Part shown: piece by piece, positions 9,056 through 58,723 of the stretch | Layout: the number at the start of each line of letters is the position of its first letter | Numbering within the stretch: position 1 is the stretch's first letter | From: Psychrobacter arcticus 273-4 | GTDB taxonomy: Bacteria > Pseudomonadota > Gammaproteobacteria > Pseudomonadales > Moraxellaceae | Length of the DNA: 64,000 nt | Assembly (NCBI RefSeq): GCF_000012305.1 | Contig: NC_007204.1 | Span: forward strand, 434,001 to 498,000 | Direction of reading: 5' to 3' | The notes under the pieces: model-generated | Told to the model about the DNA's origin: nothing | The model's input: only the letters and a program-made list of their open reading frames with translations | Databases searched by the model: none | Position numbers and translations under genes: made by a program

Positions 9056-9632
9056 AGAGTATCACCTATGCATAAAGTAAATAAATCGCAACGCTGCTTA
9101 TTCTAAATCTCAGTTCTAAATATCAGTTCTAAATATTAGTGCTAAATAGATGGGTTTTATTCAATAAATTGAGTAAGTGACCAATCTTATATAAATAGAA
9201 AAAATCATAATAGTCGCGTTCAGATAACCATTTATATGTGGTCTTATCAGTTGATATTAAAGCGTATTCACACAATTATCGATGATTTTATGTTACAGAG
9301 TTCATTAGTCAGTATTTCATCCTAGCAGTGCGATATAGTCGGTGAAAAGTAATATCGATACAACACGTACTGCTGGTGCAAATTTTTCTTGCTTGCTGTG
9401 CCTACGCAGACAGAGGCTGCAAAAAATTTACACCAGCAATACGGTAGCGACTTTAAAGTATTTCAACGATAGTCTTTCTAAACTGCATCAGTTAGAGATA
9501 TTAGCAGCAAATTACTCACAAAACCTATTCATAACTCGGTGAACAAGTCGTCACTGGCTGAATAAACTTTGTTATACTTATTGCGTTTGTTTACCATATA
9601 TAATCATAAGTTTTTAATCACGAGGGACACAG
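9056..9632. other. Intergenic region between hflX and the acyltransferase gene
   Basis: Divergent promoter region for hflX and the acyltransferase. It carries three imperfect direct repeats of TCAGTTCTAAATA at about 9110-9148 and one full 138-bp element (9334-9471). No gene is seen; the short open frame that runs through the element is discussed under the element. Confidence 0.5.
9334..9471 (+). repeat. 138-bp TATAGT element, copy 1
   Basis: Full length. Left end TATAGTCGGTGAAAAG, right end CAACGATA (one base differs from the usual CAACTATA). The inner arms are CTGCTGGTGCAAAT and ATTTACACCAGCAAT. Confidence 0.9.
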
Positions 9633-14042: not shown

Positions 14043-14220
14043 GGCAAGTCTGTAATCGTTAGAGCTAACGCTCACTACAACCTAAAGCCAATTGAGAATT
14101 ATAAAATATATCAAGATTTTTTCTCATCTTTATCAAAGTCGCTTTTCTTAGCAGCTAATGCTGTAGAGTAAAAGGCTAATAAATAAGGAAGAGTACTTTA
14201 AATTAGTTGACCACTACAGC

Positions 14221-15150
14221 TTGAAGAAAAATATGCCCCTGAAACTACTAAAGCGTAAGTTGGATTCTTTAAAAAATCCTTCATATACTGCACAACGTTT
14301 AAATCCGACAACTAAATTGTATCAAAAAGCAGCGCATAACGGTGATGCTGAAGCCCAGTTTAACCTTGGATTAACTTACAAAGACGGTCAAGATGTTCAG
14401 CAAGATAATAGTATGGCAGTTAAATGGTATCAAAAGGCAGCAGAGCAGGGCCATATTGCTTCTCAGTTTAACCTTGGGTCGCTGTACCGAGACGGCAAAG
14501 GTGTCCAGCAGGACTTTTCTTTAGCAGCTGAATGGTATCAAAAGGCAGCAGAGCAGGGCCATATTGCTTCTCAGTTTAACCTTGGGTCGCTGTACCGAGA
14601 CGGCAAAGGTGTCCAGCAGGACTTTTCTTTAGCAGCTGAATGGTATCAAAAGGCAGCAGAGCAGGGCCATATTGCTTCTCAGTTTAACCTTGGGTCGCTG
14701 TACCAAGATGGCAAAGGTATCCAGCAGGACTTTGCTTTAGCAGTTAAATGGTATCAAAAGGCAGCAGAGCAAGGCCATATTGCTTCTCAGTTTAACCTTG
14801 GGTCGCTGTACCAAGAGGGTAAAGATGTCCAGCAAGATTTTGCTTTAGCAGCTAAATGGTATCAAAAGGCAGCGGAGCAGGGCCATATTGCTTCTCAGTT
14901 TAACCTTGGGTCGCTGTACCAAGAGGGCAAAGATGTCCAGCAAGATTTTGCTTTAGCAGCTAAATGGTATCAAAAGGCAGCGGAGCAGGGCCATATTGCT
15001 TCTCAGTTTAACCTTGGGTCGCTGTACCAAGAGGGCAAAGGTTTGCGTCAAGATAAGAATCAAGCAAAAGAATGGTTCGGTAAAGCTTGTGATAACGGGG
15101 ATCAAGCTGGCTGTGATAATTATCGAATATTAAATGAACTAGGATATTAA
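14221..15150 (+). CDS. Sel1-repeat (SLR) protein with near-identical repeats
   Basis: About 309 residues made of seven 36-residue Sel1-like repeats and a partial eighth. Each repeat is of the form WYQKAAEQGHIASQFNLGSL then Y-D/E-GK-QQDF. Sel1 repeats form an alpha-solenoid used for protein-protein contacts. No signal peptide is visible. The only starts are TTG 14221 and ATG 14233, neither with a good ribosome binding site, and the frame is open further upstream to 14167 without an ATG. The 5' end may therefore be lost and the gene may be a remnant. It lies 50 bp after the interrupted lipoprotein gene, suggesting a former operon of a surface lipoprotein and a solenoid partner (inference). Confidence 0.75.
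   Translation: MKKNMPLKLLKRKLDSLKNPSYTAQRLNPTTKLYQKAAHNGDAEAQFNLGLTYKDGQDVQQDNSMAVKWYQKAAEQGHIASQFNLGSLYRDGKGVQQDFSLAAEWYQKAAEQGHIASQFNLGSLYRDGKGVQQDFSLAAEWYQKAAEQGHIASQFNLGSLYQDGKGIQQDFALAVKWYQKAAEQGHIASQFNLGSLYQEGKDVQQDFALAAKWYQKAAEQGHIASQFNLGSLYQEGKDVQQDFALAAKWYQKAAEQGHIASQFNLGSLYQEGKGLRQDKNQAKEWFGKACDNGDQAGCDNYRILNELGY
14425..15072 (+). repeat. Six tandem 108-bp repeats in the Sel1 gene
   Basis: Six consecutive 108-bp units, each coding for one 36-residue Sel1 repeat. The first half of every unit is almost identical at the DNA level; units 1-2 and units 4-5 match over nearly the whole length. Such identity implies recent duplication or gene conversion. Confidence 0.9.
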
Positions 15151-15497: not shown

Positions 15498-15635
15498 TAT
15501 AGTTGAAATACTTTAAAGTCGCTACCGTATTGCTGGTGTAAATTTTTTGCAGCCTCTGTCTGCGTAGGCACAGCAAGCAAGAAAAATTTGCACCAGTAGT
15601 ACGTGTTGTATCGATATTACTTTTCACCGACTATA
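15498..15635 (-). repeat. 138-bp TATAGT element, copy 3
   Basis: Full length in reverse orientation, next to the IS3 remnant. On the far side (15636-15752, plus strand) a short open tail ending VGKQVYRAVYIGIFLM may be the end of another lost gene. Confidence 0.93.
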
Positions 15636-16420: not shown

Positions 16421-16558
16421 TATAGTCGGTGAAAAGTAATATCGATACAACACGTACTACTGGTGCAAATTTTTCTTGCTTGCTGTGCCTACGCAGACAG
16501 AGGCTGCAAAAAATTTACACCAGCAATACGGTAGCGACTGTAAAGTATTTCAACTATA
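16421..16558 (+). repeat. 138-bp TATAGT element, copy 4
   Basis: Full length, 39 bp after the hemerythrin stop and directly before the terminator at 16566. Left arm ACTACTGGTGCAAAT, right arm ATTTACACCAGCAAT. Confidence 0.93.
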
Positions 16559-20148: not shown

Positions 20149-20610
20149 AGAAGGCGTCTTTTAAAATGGTGATTAAAATGTAAATTGAATTAAAAAGTGC
20201 GTGTAAAGCTGGCTACAAAACTTAAGGTAATACTGGGATTGAAAGTAGATAACACTCGCTATTATATGACAAAAAGAGTGGGGTAAGAAGAGCTGCCGAG
20301 TATCGTTTCTATGTCCGTCAAAACCGTCACAAAATTTATTTAACGAGCGATTGGTTGTTACTTTATATCTGCTAGGATAATAAATTGAGCAATCAATGTT
20401 CATGCTGTCTTTATATGCAAGACAGCATCATATCACTATCGTCAGATAATCCCTACTTTCAGTAGTTGATAGTCGTTGTTGATTTAACCGTTTTTATTCA
20501 TTGATTTTAATCTATAGTTGAAATACTTTAAAGTCGCTACAGTATTGCTGGTGTAAATTTTTTGCAGTCTTTTTATGGTGGGATTACCAACGCTTTATGT
20601 CATCATTTAT
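20149..20610. other. Intergenic region upstream of ileS with an element fragment
   Basis: About 460 bases without a gene. It holds the ileS promoter region and a right-half fragment of the 138-bp element at 20513-20570. Nothing else is recognised. Confidence 0.5.
20513..20570 (-). repeat. Truncated 138-bp TATAGT element (about 58 bp)
   Basis: TATAGTTGAAATACTTTAAA, then GTCGCTACAGTATTGCTGG and TGTAAATTTTTTGCAG match the reversed right end; the match stops after the first inner arm and runs into the 3' flank of the thioredoxin-like gene. Confidence 0.85.
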
Positions 20611-21280: not shown

Positions 21281-21418
21281 TATAGTCGGTGAAAAGTAAT
21301 ATCGATACAACACGTACTACTGGTGCAAATTTTTCTTGCTTGCTGTGCCTACGCAGACAGAGGCTGCAAAAAATTTACACCAGTAGTACTGTAGCGACTT
21401 TAAAGTATTTCAACTATA
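21281..21418 (+). repeat. 138-bp TATAGT element, copy 6
   Basis: Full length; it ends 8 bp from the stop codon of the convergent GNAT-nitrilase gene. The two inner arms match each other well (ACTACTGGTGCAAAT and ATTTACACCAGTAGT). Confidence 0.93.
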
Positions 21419-35526: not shown

Positions 35527-38481
35527 TTAATGCGCCTCATCCCAATTTTGACCACTGTCCGTCTCAACCAATAGCGGTACCGCAAAGTTGACGTTCCAGC
35601 CTTTTTCAACCGCCGTCGCTGTCAAAACATTTTGCATAGCGTCAGTAATCAATTGGCTTATTTCATCGACTTTGTTGGCATCAACTTCAAACACCAATTC
35701 GTCATGGACTTGCAGTAGCATTTTTGCCTGATGTTTTGGTAGTACTTTATCGACGGCAATCATCGCAAGTTTAATCAAATCGGCCGCTGAGCCTTGTAAT
35801 GGTGCGTTAATTGCCGCTCGTTCAGCGCCTTGTTTAACCATACGATTGCTATGATTAATATCAGGGGTATAAAGCTTACGACCCAATATCGTCTCGACAT
35901 AGCCATGCTCATAGGCGCTGGCACGAGTATTGATCATATAGTCTTTGACGCCAGGATAGCGCTCAAAGTACATATCAATATAGTCTTGCGCCTCACTACG
36001 GCTCATCTGTAGTTGTTTGGCAAGTCCAAAGGCACTCATGCCATAGAGCAGACCAAAGTTAATAGCTTTGGCATTACGACGCTCGGTTGCGGTAACATCC
36101 GCCACTTCTTTGCCAAGTACTTCAGCAGCGGTGGCAGCGTGAATATCAAGCCCTTCATTAAAGGCATGAGTCAGGTTTTTATCACCTGAGAAATGCGCCA
36201 TTAAACGCAACTCGATTTGCGAATAATCCGCCGCTAATATCACCCGACCTTCTGGCGCAATAAAGGCTTGACGAATCAAGCGACCGGTCGCAGTGCGAAT
36301 AGGAATATTTTGTAAATTAGGATCTGTTGAAGATAAGCGTCCTGTGCTAGTTAAAGCTTGATGATAGCTAGTATGTACACGGTCAGTCTCGCTATCTGCC
36401 ACATTATCAAGCGCATCAGTATAGGTGCTTTTGAGTTTAGAGAGTCCGCGATACTCTAAGGTAATATCGACCAAAGGATGATCAATTTTTGACAATACGG
36501 CTTCACCCGTAGAGTATTGACCAGTCTTGGTTTTTTTACCGCCAGCAACGCCAAGCTTATCAAATAGCATCTCCCCAAGCTGCTTAGGAGAGCCGAGATT
36601 AAACTCTTCTCCCGCCACTTCGTAAGCACGTTTTTCAAGGGCAATAATTTCTTCATCGAAGCGTTTTGATAACTCATTTAAAAATGGACGCTTAATTAAA
36701 ATACCATGAGCTTCCATCTGGCAGAGTATCTCTGCTGTAGGAATCTCCAGTGCATGTAGCAGCTTGGCGTTATTGGTGTCATCAGCAAGCTTTTGACTAA
36801 ACAGCTCGAATAATTGATAAGTGATATCAGCATCTTCACAAGCATAGTCGCTGGCAATATCAATCGCCACTTGATCAAAACTCACTTGCTTAGCACCTTT
36901 ACCAGCGACATCTTCAAAGCTAATGGTTTGCGTTTGCAGATAATGCCGTGCCAGATCATCCATACCGTGACGGGTAACAGCGGCATTAATCACATAGCTG
37001 GCAAGCATGGTATCCATCGCCCAGTTGTTGGGCTTGTCATGAATATTGCCTAAGAGATTGATATCGTAAAGGCTGAGGATATGCGCATCATATTTTAGGT
37101 GCTGACCGATTTTACCAATGCTTGAGTTTTCTAAAATAGATTTTAAGCGGACAAGTACCGTATCGCGATCGAGCTGCTTTTCGGTTAATTCGTCGCCTTC
37201 TAGCGAATGAGTTAGCGGTATATAATAAGCTTCGTGTGCTTGCACGGCAAAAGACAAGCCGACCAATTCAGCCTGACGCCAATAGACGCTTGTGGTCTCG
37301 GTATCAATGACGAAATGCGGGGCAGAGGCTAATAGTTGAACTAGGTTATCAAAGGCGGGCTCGTCTAAAATAGTATGCCACGCTCTGTCGTGACTTTTGC
37401 TATCGGTGACATCACCAATGGCGCTTGATTGTAAAGATTTGGCGATTTGCGCCTGTGACTCAGTATCAGCTTGGCTATGAGCGACACTTTGAGCACCATT
37501 GGCTGGATGATTAGGGTGATCAAGTGACGCCAGCTCGTTTCTAAATTCAAGCTCACTGTATAGAGCGCGTAGCTCATCGATATGGGCGCAAGGATCAGTG
37601 TTTATTTTTAAATCTTGCCAATCTTGCCCAACTTCTAAATCAGTGACGATGGTTGCCAGCTGCGCATTCATCGGAATATCATCAGCATATTCAAGCAAGT
37701 TTTTACCCGCACGTCCTTTTATATTGGCAACGTTTTTTAGCATATTATCGATATTGCCATATTCATTTAACAAGTCTTTGGCAGTCTTTTTACCGATGCC
37801 GGGTACGCCTTTGATACCGTCAGAGGAATCACCCATTAAAGTTAAAAAATCAATCATCTGGTCAGGATTAATACCGAATTTTTCGACCACGCCAGTGCTG
37901 TCAGTTATCTTACCTGTAAAGCTGTCTTCTAATATCACGCAGTCATTAATCAGCTGCATCATGTCTTTATCACCGGTTGAGATAACCACGTGATGCCCTT
38001 CGGCGACCGCACGATAGGCGAGCGTACCGATGATATCGTCCGCTTCTGCGCCTTCGATACGTAACAGTGGAATCCCAAGTGCGGTGACCAAACGATGAAT
38101 ATAAGGAATCTGCTCAGCCAGCTCTATATCCATTTTTGGACGATTGGCTTTGTACTCTTCTGACATGGCATGGCGAAAGGTCGGTGATTTGGTATCAAAA
38201 CAAACCGCCATATGCGTTGGGTGATAGCGGCGCATCAGCTTTAACAGCGCATTGAGTGTGCCACGTATCGCATTGGTGACTAGCCCTTGCGAATTTTGCA
38301 TGGTTTTTGGCAGCGCATGATAGGTGCGAAACAGATAATAAGAGCCATCGACCAATATAAAAGGTGGCTGGTTTTTGTCCACATGTGTGGTCGTCATCGT
38401 CGCTACATTTGGCATCGTTGCAAAGTTTGGTAGCGTATTGGGATTGATGGGTGAGTGCGAGTTGTGATCGTTGTCGGTCAT
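35527..38481 (-). CDS. polA: DNA polymerase I
   Basis: A 984-residue repair and Okazaki-fragment polymerase with three domains. These are an N-terminal 5' nuclease (residues about 35-320: LVDGSYYLFRTYHALP, GVPGIGKKTAKDLL), a 3'-5' exonuclease (about 380-570) whose DTETTS acidic motif is present so proofreading looks active, and the family A polymerase (about 600-984). Polymerase motifs: A, ADYSQIELRLMAH; B, RRNAKAINFGLLYGMSAFGL; C, LQVHDELVFEV. It is longer than E. coli PolI (928) owing to a linker near residues 310-370. ATG 38481 has only a weak upstream site. A 138-bp element lies 33 bp upstream. Confidence 0.97.
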   Translation of the reverse strand: MTDNDHNSHSPINPNTLPNFATMPNVATMTTTHVDKNQPPFILVDGSYYLFRTYHALPKTMQNSQGLVTNAIRGTLNALLKLMRRYHPTHMAVCFDTKSPTFRHAMSEEYKANRPKMDIELAEQIPYIHRLVTALGIPLLRIEGAEADDIIGTLAYRAVAEGHHVVISTGDKDMMQLINDCVILEDSFTGKITDSTGVVEKFGINPDQMIDFLTLMGDSSDGIKGVPGIGKKTAKDLLNEYGNIDNMLKNVANIKGRAGKNLLEYADDIPMNAQLATIVTDLEVGQDWQDLKINTDPCAHIDELRALYSELEFRNELASLDHPNHPANGAQSVAHSQADTESQAQIAKSLQSSAIGDVTDSKSHDRAWHTILDEPAFDNLVQLLASAPHFVIDTETTSVYWRQAELVGLSFAVQAHEAYYIPLTHSLEGDELTEKQLDRDTVLVRLKSILENSSIGKIGQHLKYDAHILSLYDINLLGNIHDKPNNWAMDTMLASYVINAAVTRHGMDDLARHYLQTQTISFEDVAGKGAKQVSFDQVAIDIASDYACEDADITYQLFELFSQKLADDTNNAKLLHALEIPTAEILCQMEAHGILIKRPFLNELSKRFDEEIIALEKRAYEVAGEEFNLGSPKQLGEMLFDKLGVAGGKKTKTGQYSTGEAVLSKIDHPLVDITLEYRGLSKLKSTYTDALDNVADSETDRVHTSYHQALTSTGRLSSTDPNLQNIPIRTATGRLIRQAFIAPEGRVILAADYSQIELRLMAHFSGDKNLTHAFNEGLDIHAATAAEVLGKEVADVTATERRNAKAINFGLLYGMSAFGLAKQLQMSRSEAQDYIDMYFERYPGVKDYMINTRASAYEHGYVETILGRKLYTPDINHSNRMVKQGAERAAINAPLQGSAADLIKLAMIAVDKVLPKHQAKMLLQVHDELVFEVDANKVDEISQLITDAMQNVLTATAVEKGWNVNFAVPLLVETDSGQNWDEAH

Positions 38482-38513
38482 AGAGATTCACTTATCAAAT
38501 ATTGGGCAGCAAG

Positions 38514-38651
38514 TATAGTCGGTGAAAAGTAATATCGATACAACAGGTACTACTGGTGCAAATTTTTCTTGCTTGCTGTGCCTACGCAGACAGAGGCTGC
38601 AAAAAATTTACACCAGTAGTACGGTAGCGACTTTAAAGTATTTCAACTATA
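38514..38651 (+). repeat. 138-bp TATAGT element, copy 7
   Basis: Full length, upstream of polA. It sits at the junction of a 14-bp direct repeat, TATTGGGCAGCAAG before and TATTAGGCAGCAAG after (one mismatch), each unit starting at TA. Confidence 0.93.
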
Positions 38652-38780
38652 TTAGGCAGCAAGTATTGGGTAAAAATAGACCCTCATTATAACGATAAAA
38701 GTGATGCGTGCCGAATGGATGATGAACGAATAAAAAGAATAAAGAGTTAGGATGCGTACGAACCCAAATGATAGCCCATA

Positions 38781-38813
38781 AAAAAAGAACCCAGATCAAC
38801 TGAGTTCTTTTTA
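38781..38813. terminator. ohr terminator
   Basis: Stem of AAAGAAC and CAG paired with CTG and GTTCTTT with one mismatch and a 5-base loop, with A/T-runs outside. On the minus strand it ends the ohr transcript. The core recurs at 39630-39653. Confidence 0.75.
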
Positions 38814-38842
38814 TTATTGCAAATATCGTTGTTATTAGAGGC

Positions 38843-39256
38843 TTATTTTACTTCTGAGGTTACTTCGCTATCGACATTACCATGGATAGCTTTAGAATAT
38901 GGGCAGACTTTATTAGCCTTCTCAACCAATTGCTGGAATTCATCCGCTGATAGCTCTGTGTTTTTACCGATAACATGAATTTTAATGGCTAATTTAAAGT
39001 CTAGATCTTCACCTTTAAGTAGATCTACCGATACTTCGGTAGTAGAGTCAAACTTTGCTTTTTCTGCCCCTTTGACTGCACCAAGTGCACCATCAAAGCA
39101 AGCAGCTATACCCATAGCGAATAATTGCTCTGGGTTATTACCGTCTTTACCAGAACCAGGTGCAACCATATTAATCGTCAAATCGCTGTCTTGAAGACTA
39201 GCGCTACCTGCACGGCCGCCAGTTACAGATGCTTTAGTCGAATATAAGGGTTCCAT
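38843..39256 (-). CDS. ohr: Organic hydroperoxide resistance protein
   Basis: A 137-residue OsmC/Ohr thiol peroxidase that reduces organic hydroperoxides. The two active-site cysteines are in AACFDGALGAV and NKVCPYSKAIHGN. The N-terminal TGGRAGSASLQDSDLTINM and the block NPEQLFAMGIAACF are diagnostic of Ohr. It is cytoplasmic and acts as a dimer. ATG 39256 follows AGGATA. No OhrR-like MarR regulator is adjacent. Confidence 0.94.
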   Translation of the reverse strand: MEPLYSTKASVTGGRAGSASLQDSDLTINMVAPGSGKDGNNPEQLFAMGIAACFDGALGAVKGAEKAKFDSTTEVSVDLLKGEDLDFKLAIKIHVIGKNTELSADEFQQLVEKANKVCPYSKAIHGNVDSEVTSEVK

Positions 39257-39629
39257 AATTTATCCTTTTATATAATTAGCTTGTTGTCCATCATGTTATA
39301 GTGTTTTTAAATCTTGTTATAGCTAATTTTAAAATAGCCCATCTAGCATAACAGACGATAAGGCAAGCTTTATATAGTGGCAGTAAAAGTATGATATGAA
39401 TTTGTAAGTTTACCTTTTAAGTTTATGAGACAAAAACTAAGTTTGCTATAACTCATCGTTGCAGTAGGGGAAACTAGTGACATAAAGTAGATACAATATA
39501 TCTATAACTACTGATGCCAGCATTTTAAAAAGGACGCTGGACGATGAATAAGGTTCAGTATGTTATATCCCCGCGGTCACTAGTGAGTGCTCCTTCTTCG
39601 TCTTTGATGCTAAGGATAAAACAGGACTT

Positions 39630-39653
39630 AGAACCCAGATCAACTGAGTTCTT
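39630..39653. repeat. 24-bp hairpin sequence shared with the ohr terminator
   Basis: AGAACCCAGATCAACTGAGT plus TCTT here is identical to 38786-38809, which forms the ohr terminator stem. Here it has no T-run and lies inside a pseudogene, where it introduces a stop codon. Confidence 0.75.
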
Positions 39654-39883
39654 GATGCTGAAAAACGCTTTAATGATAAGCGTCAATCTAGTATGACCAG
39701 AGTTAATATTGGTTTCAACAATAGCCAAAAGGCAGCACAGGTTAAATGCTTTGCCGTTAATAATGACCCAGAGTATATATAGCGGTGTGGATTATGACAG
39801 CAGCATCTATGAAGTGGATTTTATTAACCGTGCTGCACCTATTCCAAATGAAGATAGCATACGCGGCGTCGTTGATTACACGA

Positions 39884-40021
39884 TATAGTCGGTGAAAAGT
39901 AATATCGATACAACACGTATTGCTGGTGCAAATTTTTCTTGCTTGCTGTGCCTACGCAGACAGAGGCTGCAAAAAATTTACACCAGCAATACGGTAGCGA
40001 CTTTAAAGTATTTTAACTATA
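39884..40021 (+). repeat. 138-bp TATAGT element, copy 8 (inside a pseudogene)
   Basis: Full length; the right end is TTAACTATA. Both inner arms are of the ATTGCTGG / CCAGCAAT type. Excision with one TA kept restores the host reading frame. Confidence 0.95.
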
Positions 40022-40093
40022 GTTAATAAAGTTGCCGCTGATTTTTTAGCAACGCAAATCACAAAATATTATTAAGCTTAAAAAAGCCATGAG

Positions 40094-40127
40094 CACTCTC
40101 TATTTACTTAATAGAGAGTGTTTTTTT
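40094..40127 (+). terminator. Terminator after the pseudogene
   Basis: An 11-bp perfect stem CACTCTCTATT (40094-40104) with AATAGAGAGTG (40110-40120) followed by seven T. Confidence 0.85.
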
Positions 40128-40233
40128 GTGCGCTAATTCTGCACCTTGATGCTAAATCCGCTACAATACGCCCATTGTTTACTCTATTTATTTAGATTGA
40201 TTTCTAAATGACACAACGTTGAAGCCAAAAATT

Positions 40234-41829
40234 ATGAGCGTAGATCCGAAGAAATTAAATAAAGAAGTGGCCAAACGCCGCACCTTTGCCATCATCTCGC
40301 ATCCTGATGCTGGTAAGACCACGATGACCGAAAAATTGCTGCTATGGGGTCAAGCTATTCAGGTGGTTGGCGAGGTCAAAGGTCGTAAAACGGATCGCCA
40401 TGCGACATCAGATTGGATGAGTATGGAGCAAGAGCGTGGTATATCTATTACGACTTCAGTGATGCAGTTTCCTTATCAAGAGCACGTGGTCAATCTGCTT
40501 GATACTCCAGGTCACGCCGATTTTAGTGAAGATACCTATCGTACTTTGACCGCGGTCGACAGTGCGCTGATGATGGTTGATGGCGCAAAAGGCGTTGAAG
40601 AACGTACGATCAAGCTTATGGAAGTGTGCCGGATGCGTGATACGCCCATCATCTCTTTTGTCAATAAACTCGATCGGCAAATTCGTGAGCCGCTTGAGCT
40701 GCTGAGTGAGATTGAAGCAGTATTAAAGATTAAATGTATCCCGATTACTTGGCCTATTGGTATGGGTCAAGATTTCGTCGGTGTGTATCATCTGACTGAA
40801 AATAAGACTTATTTTTATGAAAAAGGTCGTGGCGGCGAGATGACGGTTTCTGAAACTCGTGAAGGCTACGATTATCCTGATATTCGTGAGCGTTTGGGTG
40901 CGCTGATGTTTGCCTCGTTTGAAGAGTCACTCGAATTGGTACAAATGGCGCTTGAAGACTTTGATGTGGATGAGTTTTTAGCCGGTGAGATGACACCTGT
41001 ATTGTTCGGTACCGCACTGGGTAACTTTGGTGTCAATATGGTACTTGATACCTTAATAAAATACTCACCACCACCAAAAGCGCATCCAACCAATGAGCGC
41101 GAAGTGGCAGCGACTGAGACAACGTTTAGTGGTTTCGTTTTTAAAATTCAGGCCAACATGGATCCGCGTCATCGTGACCGTATTGCATTTTTACGAGTTT
41201 GCTCAGGCAAGTACGAAAAAGGCATGAAATTAAAGCATGTGCGTCTGGGTAAGGACGTACGTATTGCTGATGCTTTGACCTTTTTGGCGGGCGATCGTGC
41301 AGCGTTAGAAGAAGCATATCCGGGTGATATTATTGGTCTGCACAACCATGGCACCATTTCTATCGGCGATAGCTTTACGGAAGGCGAAGAGCTGAATTTT
41401 ACTGGTATTCCACATTTCGCCCCTGAGCTGTTCCGCCGTGTTATTCTAAAAGACCCACTCAAATCGAAAGCGCTGCAAAAAGGTCTGCAGCAATTGAGTG
41501 AGGAGGGCGCAACGCAGGTCTTTATGCCGCAAATTAATAATGATTTAATCTTGGGCGCGGTCGGTGTGCTACAGTTTGAAGTGGTCGCCCATCGTCTCAA
41601 AGAAGAATACAAAGTGCAGTGTATCTTTGAGCCGGTATCTATTGCGACGGTACGCTGGATTCATTGCGATGATGAAGTAGCGCTTGCGAAATTTAAGCGT
41701 AAAGCCCATGACCAACTATCACTAGATGGCGGTGGTCATCTGACTTATCTTGCGCCATCACGGGTGAATTTACAGCTGATGCAAGATCGCTATCCAGAAG
41801 TGACGTTTAGTAATACTCGCGAACACTAG
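40234..41829 (+). CDS. prfC: Peptide chain release factor 3
   Basis: A GTPase of about 531 residues that recycles RF1/RF2 from the ribosome. The G motifs are [14 protein letters not shown] (G1), GISITTS (G2), [12 protein letters not shown] (G3) and NKLDR (G4). The RF3-specific segments [18 protein letters not shown] and [20 protein letters not shown] confirm it. The C-terminal domain runs to FSNTREH. ATG 40234 is preferred to TTG 40219 because RF3 proteins begin close before the [14 protein letters not shown] segment. It is a single gene with a terminator after it. Confidence 0.96.
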
Positions 41830-41857
41830 AGTAAGTTGCTCCATTTTGCTTAATTTT

Positions 41858-41884
41858 AAAAGGCACGCTATCGTGTCTTTTTTA
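41858..41884 (+). terminator. prfC terminator
   Basis: A 10-bp stem with one wobble (41858-41867 with 41872-41881), 4-base loop, then T-run. Confidence 0.8.
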
Positions 41885-42029
41885 TGAGCTATCTAAAGCG
41901 TACCACACTGGTTTTTTATCAACAGTGAGCATTCAAAAACACCAACAGTGTTCCTACAATATAGGACAAAGGTTACGGTAGAATATCAGTAAATCTTATA
42001 GATATATTAAAGAGGCTAATATATTAAAG

Positions 42030-42816
42030 AGGCTATATGAAAATTGCCTGGAAATTGAGATCAAGTATCTTAATACCAATCATAAATGGATAAATGATAT
42101 TACCAATCAGCGCATTAACACTCTGGTTGTTAATAGTAAACCGTCTGAATCTGCATCGATCACTACCAAAACCAATCCAGCTGCTATCAAAAGCGCTCTT
42201 GATGGTTTTGTCGCGTCGCAATTTAATGAGCTACCGAGAGGCAGTGCATTTGCCTACAGCCTAACGGTGACACCTGAATATGTGGGTCATATCAATGATT
42301 TTGAGGTATTCGAGATAAGCTCGTAGGTCTTTACTGGCGGCGCACATGGAATGCTATATAGCAAATATCTATAGTTGAAATACTTTAAAGTCGCTACCGT
42401 ATTGCTGGTGTAAATTTTTTGCAGCCTCTGTCTGCGTAGGCACAGCAAGCAAGAAAAATTTGCACCAGTAGTACCTGTTGTATCGATATTACTTTTCACC
42501 GACTATAGTATTTGACCAAAAGTCAAAAAAGCAAATTAAACTGGCGGATATGCTGCAAAGCGGTAAAAAACCACAAGTTAAAGCGCTTATCTATAATGCT
42601 TATAAAGACTGGGTGAAAACGGTCGATAAAGATGTTAAAAACTACGAAAAAAATTGGCCGTTTACTCTCAGTGATAACGTGACATTGACGGATAAAGGGA
42701 TTGATATTCGTTATCAGCATTATGCTATCGCTCCCTATGTTTATGGTATGCCAGTGCTTAGCATTCCTTATGATAAGCTTGTCGGTATCATACAACCGCG
42801 CTTTATCCCTAAATAA
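42030..42816 (+). pseudogene. DUF3298/RsiV-like protein gene broken by an element
   Basis: The left part reads CLEIEIKYLNTNHKWINDIT through FAYSLTVTPEYVGHINDFEV, an in-frame TAG at 42324, then VFTGGAHGMLYSKYL. The TGGAHG block is typical of DUF3298-type extracytoplasmic domains. The 138-bp element interrupts (42370-42507). The right part continues VFDQKSKKQIKLADMLQSGK, NVTLTDKGIDIRYQHYAIAP and AYGMPVLSIPY-like sequence (YGMPVLSIPYDKLVGI). Removing 136 bp restores KYL-VFDQK in frame. The N-terminus with its expected signal peptide is missing, so the gene has a lost 5' end, a stop and an insertion. Confidence 0.8.
42370..42507 (-). repeat. 138-bp TATAGT element, copy 9 (inside a pseudogene)
   Basis: Full length, reverse orientation. 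Keeping one TA after excision rejoins codons TAT-CTA-GTA-TTT of the host gene. Confidence 0.95.
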
Positions 42817-42896
42817 TAAGGCTATAAACGCAAGATAGAACGGGATGGATCTGTTAATGACCATCATGAGACATTTAATAACTAAGGAGTCATCGC

Positions 42897-43853
42897 ATGA
42901 CAAACGATATAGAGAATATGAATGCCGCAGCAACCAATACATGGCAGCTAAATGCCTTGACAGAGGCACTTGGCGATCTAACATTGACGGTCACTGACAG
43001 CCTCTCTATAGGTCGCGGTAGTGATAATGATCTAGTGCTAGGTAGCAAGCAAATTTCACGCAATCATGCACAACTGAGTGTCTTAAACGGTCAGCTATAC
43101 GTGAAAGATTTGGAGTCGTCAAACGGCACTTTTATTAATGATGAGCGTATCGCAGCCAATGAATCGAAGTACTTAGAAGCAAATGATACGCTTGGGTTTG
43201 CAAGCTTGAGCTTTCAAGTAAGTGCGCCAGTGGCTGCTACTGCGATTCCTGAGCAAGCAGTTGCCGATAAACCAACTTTGATGTTGAGTCCTGATACTGA
43301 AATAGCGCTTATTGTTGAAGCAGAGCCAGTCGTTAAAGAAACAGGAATCTCAGAAATCTTATTAGCCGCTGACAGTGCCGAACCAGTATTGAGCGAAGTA
43401 GAATATAGTCCTACTGAAACCATGCCAATCCCTTCTGCTCATCAAGAATCACTAGTAGAGCAGCCCGTCTTAGCTGATGAGCCTGTAATAAACAAAGCCA
43501 CTGTATCTGAAACTTTTTCAGAAACGTCTTATGCAAGCGAGGCACCAGTCATTGAGGCAGCCGTTGAGCTAGAGCATGACAAAACAACCAAAACCGCCTT
43601 GCAAGAAGAAGCAGATCCGGATGTTTTACGAGCGAAACAGGCTGCTACGTCACAGTTTTCAGGCACTGCCAATCTAGGTCAATCTCGTGATTTGGGTACC
43701 ACAGGTAATAATGCGATGGATCAAGCGCTTGATAATCCTGCTAATGAAGGAGCGGTTGAAAAGAAACCGAGCGGCGGTTGGTTTATATGGGTATTTGTCG
43801 CGATTATCATTATTGGCTTAGCACTATGGTTGTTTAATACAGGCATGGTATAG
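42897..43853 (+). CDS. FHA-domain protein with a C-terminal membrane anchor
   Basis: A 318-residue protein. Residues about 20-105 form a forkhead-associated phosphothreonine-binding domain: SIGRGSDNDLVLGSKQISRNHAQLS and VKDLESSNGTFINDERI carry the conserved GR, S/RNH and SNGT elements. A long Glu/Ala/Pro/Ser/Thr-rich linker (about 110-285) follows, and the end is a single membrane segment (WFIWVFVAIIIIGLALWLF). The FHA domain should face the cytoplasm. ATG 42897 follows AAGGAG. No Ser/Thr kinase gene lies nearby, so the phosphorylated partner is unknown. Confidence 0.87.
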   Translation: MTNDIENMNAAATNTWQLNALTEALGDLTLTVTDSLSIGRGSDNDLVLGSKQISRNHAQLSVLNGQLYVKDLESSNGTFINDERIAANESKYLEANDTLGFASLSFQVSAPVAATAIPEQAVADKPTLMLSPDTEIALIVEAEPVVKETGISEILLAADSAEPVLSEVEYSPTETMPIPSAHQESLVEQPVLADEPVINKATVSETFSETSYASEAPVIEAAVELEHDKTTKTALQEEADPDVLRAKQAATSQFSGTANLGQSRDLGTTGNNAMDQALDNPANEGAVEKKPSGGWFIWVFVAIIIIGLALWLFNTGMV

Positions 43854-48584: not shown

Positions 48585-48722
48585 TATAGTTGAAATACTT
48601 TAAAGTCGCTACCGTATTGCTGGTGTAAATTTTTTGCAGCCTCTGTCTGCGTAGGCACAGCAAGCAAGAAAAATTTGCACCAGTAGTACCTGTTGTATCG
48701 ATATTACTTTTCACCGACTATA
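48585..48722 (-). repeat. 138-bp TATAGT element, copy 10
   Basis: Full length, reverse orientation, 10 bp from the aat stop codon and directly beside the TTTTAGA tandem repeat. Confidence 0.94.
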
Positions 48723-51009: not shown

Positions 51010-51122
51010 TATAGTCAGTGAAAAGTAATATCGATACATCACGTACCGCTAGTATCACTCTTTCTTGTTTACTGTGCCTACGTAGACAGAGGCTGCAAAA
51101 AATTTATACCAGCAGTATCGTG
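51010..51122 (+). repeat. Diverged 138-bp TATAGT element, copy 12
   Basis: TATAGTCAGTGAAAAGTAAT starts it and CAGAGGCTGCAAAAAATTTA lies near the middle; the left arm has lost bases and the right third (after CCAGCAGTATCG) is replaced. Confidence 0.88.
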
Positions 51123-55002: not shown

Positions 55003-55140
55003 TATAGTTGAAATACTTTAAAGTCGCTACCGTATTGCTGGTGTAAATTTTTTGCAGCCTCTGTCTGCGTAGGCACAGCAAGCAAGAAAAATTTGCACCA
55101 GCTGTACGTGTTGTATCGATATTACTTTTCACCGACTATA
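55003..55140 (-). repeat. 138-bp TATAGT element, copy 13
   Basis: Full length, reverse orientation, ending 2 bp from the rlmH stop codon. The left inner arm carries a private change (CAGCTGGTGC). Confidence 0.93.
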
Positions 55141-58585: not shown

Positions 58586-58723
58586 TATAGTCGGTGAAAA
58601 GTAATATCGATACAACACGTACTACTGGTGCAAATTTTTCTTGCTTGCTGTGCCTACGCAGACAGAGGCTGCAAAAAATTTACACCAGTAGTACTGTAGC
58701 GACTTTAAAGTATTTCAACTATA
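58586..58723 (+). repeat. 138-bp TATAGT element, copy 14
   Basis: Full length, 86 bp upstream of the CBS/nucleotidyltransferase gene. The inner arms match each other (ACTACTGGTG and CACCAGTAGT). Confidence 0.94.

Follow-up and report, generated by a model that had tools for sequence, protein, structure and literature searches.

A 138-bp TATAGT-ended repeat with a covarying hairpin core in the genome of Psychrobacter arcticus 273-4

Results

Two 138-bp Units Flanking a prfC-like Gene

The window, that is, the whole 64,000-nt stretch analysed in this study, covers positions 434001-498000 of the 2,650,701-bp single-contig host genome, and comparisons within the genus refer to a set of 105 genomes. 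Two units of 138 bp each, running from TATAGT to ACTATA, were found where the preliminary description had placed them. They lie in opposite orientations and flank on either side an ORF at 40219-41829, which from its sequence we take to be prfC-like. The features of the two sites are as follows:

39544..40075, + strand: site-1 gene remnant, no Pfam family, limits approximate
39884..40021, + strand: 138-bp element (136 bp plus the duplicated TA), site 1
39913..39996, + strand: site-1 hairpin core, model R1, 102 bits (a sequence that is part of the model)
42037..42816, + strand: DUF3298/PdaC-like gene remnant, lacking its 5' part, with a single in-frame TAG and the inserted element
42370..42507, - strand: 138-bp element, site 2, within the DUF3298/PdaC-like gene remnant
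42395..42478, - strand: site-2 hairpin core, model R1, 94.6 bits

Because 138 is a multiple of three and 136 is not, the reading frame discriminates between an insertion in which one TA is kept and one without duplication, and at both sites the proteins are rejoined only in the former case. When a single TA is retained, site 1 reads GAT TAC ACG A[TA...TA] GTT AAT AAA GTT, which joins DYTI to VNKV, and site 2 reads ...SKYLVFDQK, which joins SKYL to VFDQK, both as previously proposed.

The earlier designation of the two loci as broken genes is accurate as a description; the element as their sole breaker is not upheld, since both genes carry other lesions. By coordinate comparison with the L015 homologue, an intact 284-aa ORF with DUF3298 and PdaC Pfam matches, the DUF3298 remnant is short of about 194 bp in its 5' region, and in place of a Tyr codon of L015 it carries TAG (EISS*VFTGG vs EISSYVFTGG). 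No ORF of at least 80 aa survives in the site-1 gene, the L021 homologue of which is a 297-aa ORF. Given these lesions, the insertions map the element and give no proof that it caused gene loss. The genes were either ailing before the insertion or have decayed since, and the element may have inserted into genes that no longer functioned.

Copies in the Window and in the Genome

Twelve full and two partial copies are present in the window, which is more than chance. In addition to sites 1 and 2, these are:

9334..9471, + strand: full copy, TA empty site in L013
13690..13827, + strand: full copy
15498..15635, - strand: full copy
16421..16558, + strand: full copy
20513..20570, - strand: partial copy, element positions 81-138
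21281..21418, + strand: full copy, TA at the L014 junction, flank diverged
38514..38651, + strand: full copy, TA in five relatives, flanked by a 12-base imperfect repeat, gapped alignments
48585..48722, - strand: full copy, TA empty site in L015
50697..50834, + strand: full copy, TA empty site in L004 and L015
51010..51122, + strand: diverged partial copy, hairpin core at 51039-51122
55003..55140, - strand: full copy, site in a relative 2 bases short of prediction
58586..58723, + strand: full copy, TA empty site in L016 (left flank there just 37 bases)

Across the genome, the core pattern GGCACAGCAAGCAAGAAAAATTT gave 171 + 170 = 341 matches at up to three mismatches, and the reversed pattern used as a control gave 0 + 0. 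An unselected run of 400 kb contains 63 places, about one per 6.3 kb, and both counts (341 matches x 138 bp; 63 places per 400 kb) correspond to about 2% of the genome. The length is exactly 138 bp in 79/85 full copies, with the consensus TATAGT..ACTATA and inverted repeats that are imperfect beyond 6 bp, and 76 of the 79 copies of this length have TA at both ends. These 79 copies are alike, with a median of two differences from the consensus and of four between copies, medians that derive from the window and from stretches picked near core matches. The element is short and is taken to be non-coding, as judged from length alone.

Nearly all full copies (83/85) are located outside ORFs of at least 110 aa. 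A copy lies within 50 bp of 35/75 flanking gene 3' ends versus 16/73 gene 5' ends, and relative to co-directional genes neither orientation is preferred (20 vs 19). Around one copy (39800-40150), one promoter-like site (1.3 expected) and two terminator-like sites (0.5 expected) were predicted, all of them outside the element. Plasmid and phage collections gave no element match at E<=1e-5; records near this genome may be absent from those collections.

Several variant arrangements were recorded. At L098 19228-19373, the flank of a copy (cgatacaacacgtac) equals the interior of another copy, a nested insertion. Length variants have additional ACACA units around position 31 (143 and 148 bp) or a CTTGCTTGC expansion in the core (L198 18086, L202 14926, L213 7061, L095 1680-1779). 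Elsewhere, positions 14201-15150 of the window hold a tandem repeat of seven copies with a spacing of 108 bp, 61-86% like its reference copy, which overlaps an ORF at 14221-15150 on the + strand.

Empty Sites in Relatives

The prfC-like protein was matched in 105/105 genus genomes, and the neighbourhoods from 16 of these were compared. Site 2 is uninterrupted in 15/15 relatives listed, with TA as the junction dinucleotide in five (L015, L022, L019, L024, and L029), and with TG instead in nine others and TT in the last; in the near relative L015 the junction reads AATATC-TA-GTGTTTGACC inside the intact ORF. Among the nine relatives listed for site 1, six have TA (L021, L018, L025, L019, L020, and L030), L028 and L023 have TC, and L011 carries another element. 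The latter (L011 16938-17075, G049) is a hairpin MITE of another family in the opposite orientation, no more than two bases from the site-1 position of the window, and may represent a shared site, a replacement or a second insertion.

The empty-site comparison was extended to 84 copies from sampled parts of the host genome, of which 10 have a spanning match in the compared relatives, with fuller junctions for seven window copies. Clean single-TA empty sites were obtained for six of the 12 full window copies (9334, 39884, 42370, 48585, 50697, and 58586). Five relatives show a junction TA for copy 38514, with a messy, repeat-bearing flank and gapped alignments. Copy 55003 has a relative's site that is two bases shorter than plain TA duplication predicts, copy 21281 shows TA at the junction in L014 with a flank too diverged to judge, and the spanning match of copy L103:15875 is too poor for its junction to be judged. 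The clean sites support an insertion of 136 bp with duplication of TA, and the earlier proposal that the element inserted as a unit at TA is thus borne out by relatives. Separately, copy 38514 is bracketed at 38502-38663 by direct repeats of 12 bases that match imperfectly (TTGGGCAGCAAG / TTAGGCAGCAAG), and relatives contain looser repeats at that place.

A Hairpin Core Common to Several MITE Families

The host genome also contains other MITEs with different ends and arm sequences and a common centre. An alignment of 19 of the 26 non-redundant cores, which excluded six truncated or internally expanded ones and the strongly diverged L099:13224, gave a single hairpin. Paired cells make up 91.5% (0/500 shuffles), nine of 23 pairs show a double change (3/500 shuffles), double-change cells number 33 vs 13.0 in shuffles (0/500), and the covariation score is 0.215 vs 0.111 (0/500 shuffles), all in shuffle statistics that ignore the relatedness of the sequences; slid controls scored far lower. 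The inner helix is nearly invariable and therefore contributes no covariation evidence, and the motif that flanks it, CTTGCTTGCTG...CAGAGGCTGC, is nearly invariant. Fold z values range from -4.6 to -6.6. On this alignment, the centre is a hairpin that compensatory changes have preserved in several MITE families.

Hairpin matches to model R1 at E<=1e-4 were identified in 95/105 genus genomes and in none of the other 10 at that threshold. Their numbers differ greatly between species and, with the best 43 candidates scored per genome, are lower bounds in many genomes. An order-wide search of a 293-genome sample, with stricter filters and the best 15 candidates scored per genome, yielded hairpin matches in seven genomes, all of the host's genus, and none in the 286 genomes of other genera, five of which are listed in the host's family. 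Rfam returned five matches at E<=1 and none at gathering score for window positions 38400-43000.

Strand Preference and Variation

The reverse strand folds better in 54/56 unselected copies. At the arm pairs 37-106 and 39-104, 43/112 cells hold standard pairs as written and 110/112 do so on the reverse strand when G-U is included, and across families (34 non-redundant sequences) A-C mismatches outnumber G-T by 27 to 13. Since G-T outdoes A-C in single-stranded DNA too, this bias indicates a strand and not RNA as such. It may in part descend from one founder haplotype.

Variability was examined in the unselected 400 kb together with the window, copies being located by their ends; the sequence read in this study comes to about 864 kb in all. 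In the unselected sample, private changes fall in the core in 5/30 cases vs 10.2 expected (p 0.053). The depletion of core variants is not significant when shared and private changes are compared (Fisher p 0.23 unselected, 0.11 combined) and thus does not support selection on the core through transposition.

IS630 Transposons and the Ends of the Element

PF13358 (DDE_3) was identified in 84/105 genus genomes. The host genome, in which the preliminary description had suggested looking for an IS630 element with TATAGT ends, contains only three short PF13358 matches (76, 35, and 39 of 146 profile positions), and the PF13358 search found no full-length IS630 there. Thirty IS630 loci (L031-L060) were scanned for element limits, with TA at both ends as the only requirement. 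A TATAG/TAGT-type end pair ranks among the best two at 26/30 loci and does not at L041, L043, L054, and L055. Elements of 889-920 bp with TATAG ends, two of them with one TATAGC end, occur at 24 of the 30 loci, and the IS630 elements of L032 and L035 are about 1,007 bp long with one TATACT end each. Of the 24 elements, 21 encode a pair of ORFs that lie in different frames and measure 109-132 and 187-199 aa; L056, from the near relative G047, encodes a fused 281-aa protein with HTH_Tnp_IS630 and DDE_3, and L040 and L046 have neither layout.

Genus IS630 transposons resemble the 138-bp element in their TATAGT ends and in a subterminal block at about positions 18-30; unlike the transposons, which encode a DDE_3/IS630 transposase, the element is too short for one. 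The IS630-type reading proposed earlier stands as far as this likeness of ends goes, and the exact IS partner was not found. For a closer comparison, a TATAG-starting pair was picked by hand for each IS630, the 24 elements were sorted into three end groups (a working label), and 21 chosen elements were matched against these groups in 500 shuffles each, uncorrected for multiple tests. The ends of the 138-bp family match the sampled IS630 weakly (best uncorrected values: left end, group I, 16/500; right end, group III, 24/500). Sister families of the same genome that carry the same hairpin (L099 3888, 11467, and 4192; L100 15495) match group I with their left ends at 0, 1, 2, and 0 of 500, and with their right ends at 0, 22, 284, and 8 of 500.

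Group II is matched by the left end of L074 and L143, which have identical end sequences (0/500; right end not clearly, 44 and 45), and by both ends of L011:19233 (6/500 and 0/500). The left end of L066 matches group I (8/500) and its right end group II (0/500) and group I (3/500), L010, L013, and L021 have ends that fit groups I and II to a similar degree, and the left end of L107 matches no IS630 group. These comparisons suggest that the hairpin is carried between ends of two or more kinds, in a grouping that is not clean. Outside the host genome, 49/60 hairpins have TATAGT on both sides with at most one mismatch and 25/60 have it exactly, the chance in a random 62-nt stretch being 31% with one mismatch and 3% for the exact motif. 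The IS ends exceed the TATAGT background moderately, as at least 8/72 sites of a background set contaminated by other IS ends score as high for most of them.

A hairpin search of 23 IS loci gave matches at L052, L066, and L074 only, all outside the IS. At L066 1982-2126, a hairpin MITE with a group I-like left and a group II-like right end begins five bases past the end of an IS630 (approximately 1087-1976).

Discussion

The 138-bp unit is very probably a MITE that inserts at TA with target duplication and is most likely moved by an IS630-family transposase acting in trans. As the clean empty sites support, this non-autonomous element inserts 136 bp at a TA and duplicates the TA, and the most likely mover would be a Tc1/mariner-like enzyme of the IS630 family. 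Sister species carry uninterrupted IS630 members, and in the host genome short fragments alone were found. An unrelated TA-targeting transposase, with the IS630 likeness of the ends reduced to a coincidence of TATAGT, would agree with the weak end match of the 138-bp family, but sister families that share its hairpin have left ends resembling IS630 beyond TATAGT (0-2/500), and we consider this origin very unlikely. Spread by recombination or gene conversion without any transposase, as a structural RNA or REP-like host repeat, is in our view most improbable: the genus-wide, covarying hairpin and the position of 83/85 full copies outside ORFs would fit it, whereas the single-TA empty sites, the constant length (79/85), and the IS630-type ends speak for transposition.

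An IS630-type MITE mechanism is in itself ordinary, and what is unusual here is the load together with a covarying hairpin that has a near-fixed motif and occurs in families with different ends. A share of about 2% of the genome is a heavy MITE load. We favour a role of the hairpin in the element's own spread. It could serve the element in cis, either in recognition by the transposase or a host factor, or by way of a transcript through which insertions stay tolerable; of the two strands, one in particular, read as RNA or as single-stranded DNA, would be functional. The hairpin might instead benefit the host, for example in mRNA processing or stabilisation as in NEMIS, with copies kept by selection. 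Compensatory pairs, the low number of private core changes (5/30 vs 10.2 expected, p 0.053), and the proximity of copies to gene 3' ends are consistent with such a benefit; set against these are the lack of orientation preference, the non-significant core depletion, and the very uneven match numbers between species, with none in 10/105 genomes at E<=1e-4, and on balance we regard a host function as unlikely.

A bolder form of the role in spread is only tentatively put forward, namely that the hairpin might act as a cis module passed between MITEs, in the form of structured RNA or of single-stranded DNA whose internal loop has a fixed motif, used by MITEs of at least two IS630 groups and driving their hundreds of copies. 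If so, the carried structure, and not the ends, would define the superfamily. The superfamily ties a covarying hairpin to several IS630 groups and supplies candidate transposases, which makes this system of MITE and partner directly testable.

The element works like Correia and RUP elements. Correia elements of Neisseria (CREE/NEMIS) are described in the cited passages as having TATAGT ends (PMC5039591, PMC9778887) and as foldable, mostly intergenic repeats of 69-157 bp with more than 100 copies and target duplication (PMC5039591, PMC9778887, PMC2229807), and all these traits, the length range included, are shared by the 138-bp element. The 26-28 bp repeat TATAGTGGATTAA... of Correia/NEMIS is not found in the 138-bp element, which has its own sequence at the ends; judged by eye, these depart from all four printed Correia ends after TATAGT. 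RUP of Streptococcus pneumoniae, associated with IS630-Spn1, is described in the passages cited as having IS630-type ends, a TA target, a length of 107 bp, and 108 copies (PMC2229807, PMC3049150). The likeness to RUP is judged by description, and those parts of its descriptions mention no core common to families with different ends.

REP/BIME repeats are, like the 138-bp element, high-copy extragenic palindromes. To our knowledge they occur without target duplication, and the element, with its TA duplication and constant ends, does not belong to them. RepRanger lists 2,260 REP candidates for Psychrobacter arcticus in the portion of the source cited (PMC12306157). In the portions consulted of the Psychrobacter and Moraxella literature on MITEs, repeats, and IS630, we found no earlier description of the element, which does not establish its absence from print.

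The comparison with Correia extends to a possible mobiliser, the mobilising mechanism of these elements not having been determined according to the passage cited (PMC2649163). Of the four printed Correia ends, one exact variant was present in 20 stretches of the genome contigs searched, every one of them from a single N. gonorrhoeae genome, and other genomes of the genus Neisseria have other Correia-end variants. DDE_3 matches occur in 21/46 genomes of that genus. In N. gonorrhoeae DSM 9188, an IS630 fragment at a contig start (L168 1-464) ends, read from the end inward, with TATAGTCAATTAAAATCAAAATAGGACAG. L177 and L192 are 905-bp IS630 elements with an uninterrupted DDE_3 and with ends TATAGTCAATTAAAA...AGGACA/AGTACA, i.e., ...AGGACAG and ...AGTACAA, and Correia ends finish with ...AGGACAA and ...GGTACGG. 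The similarity between Correia and IS630 ends is modest (15/2000, 58/2000, 72/2000, and 345/2000 shuffles, one value per variant). From this similar end layout, Neisseria IS630 elements are suggested as a candidate class for the Correia mobiliser, a lead that is suggestive only.
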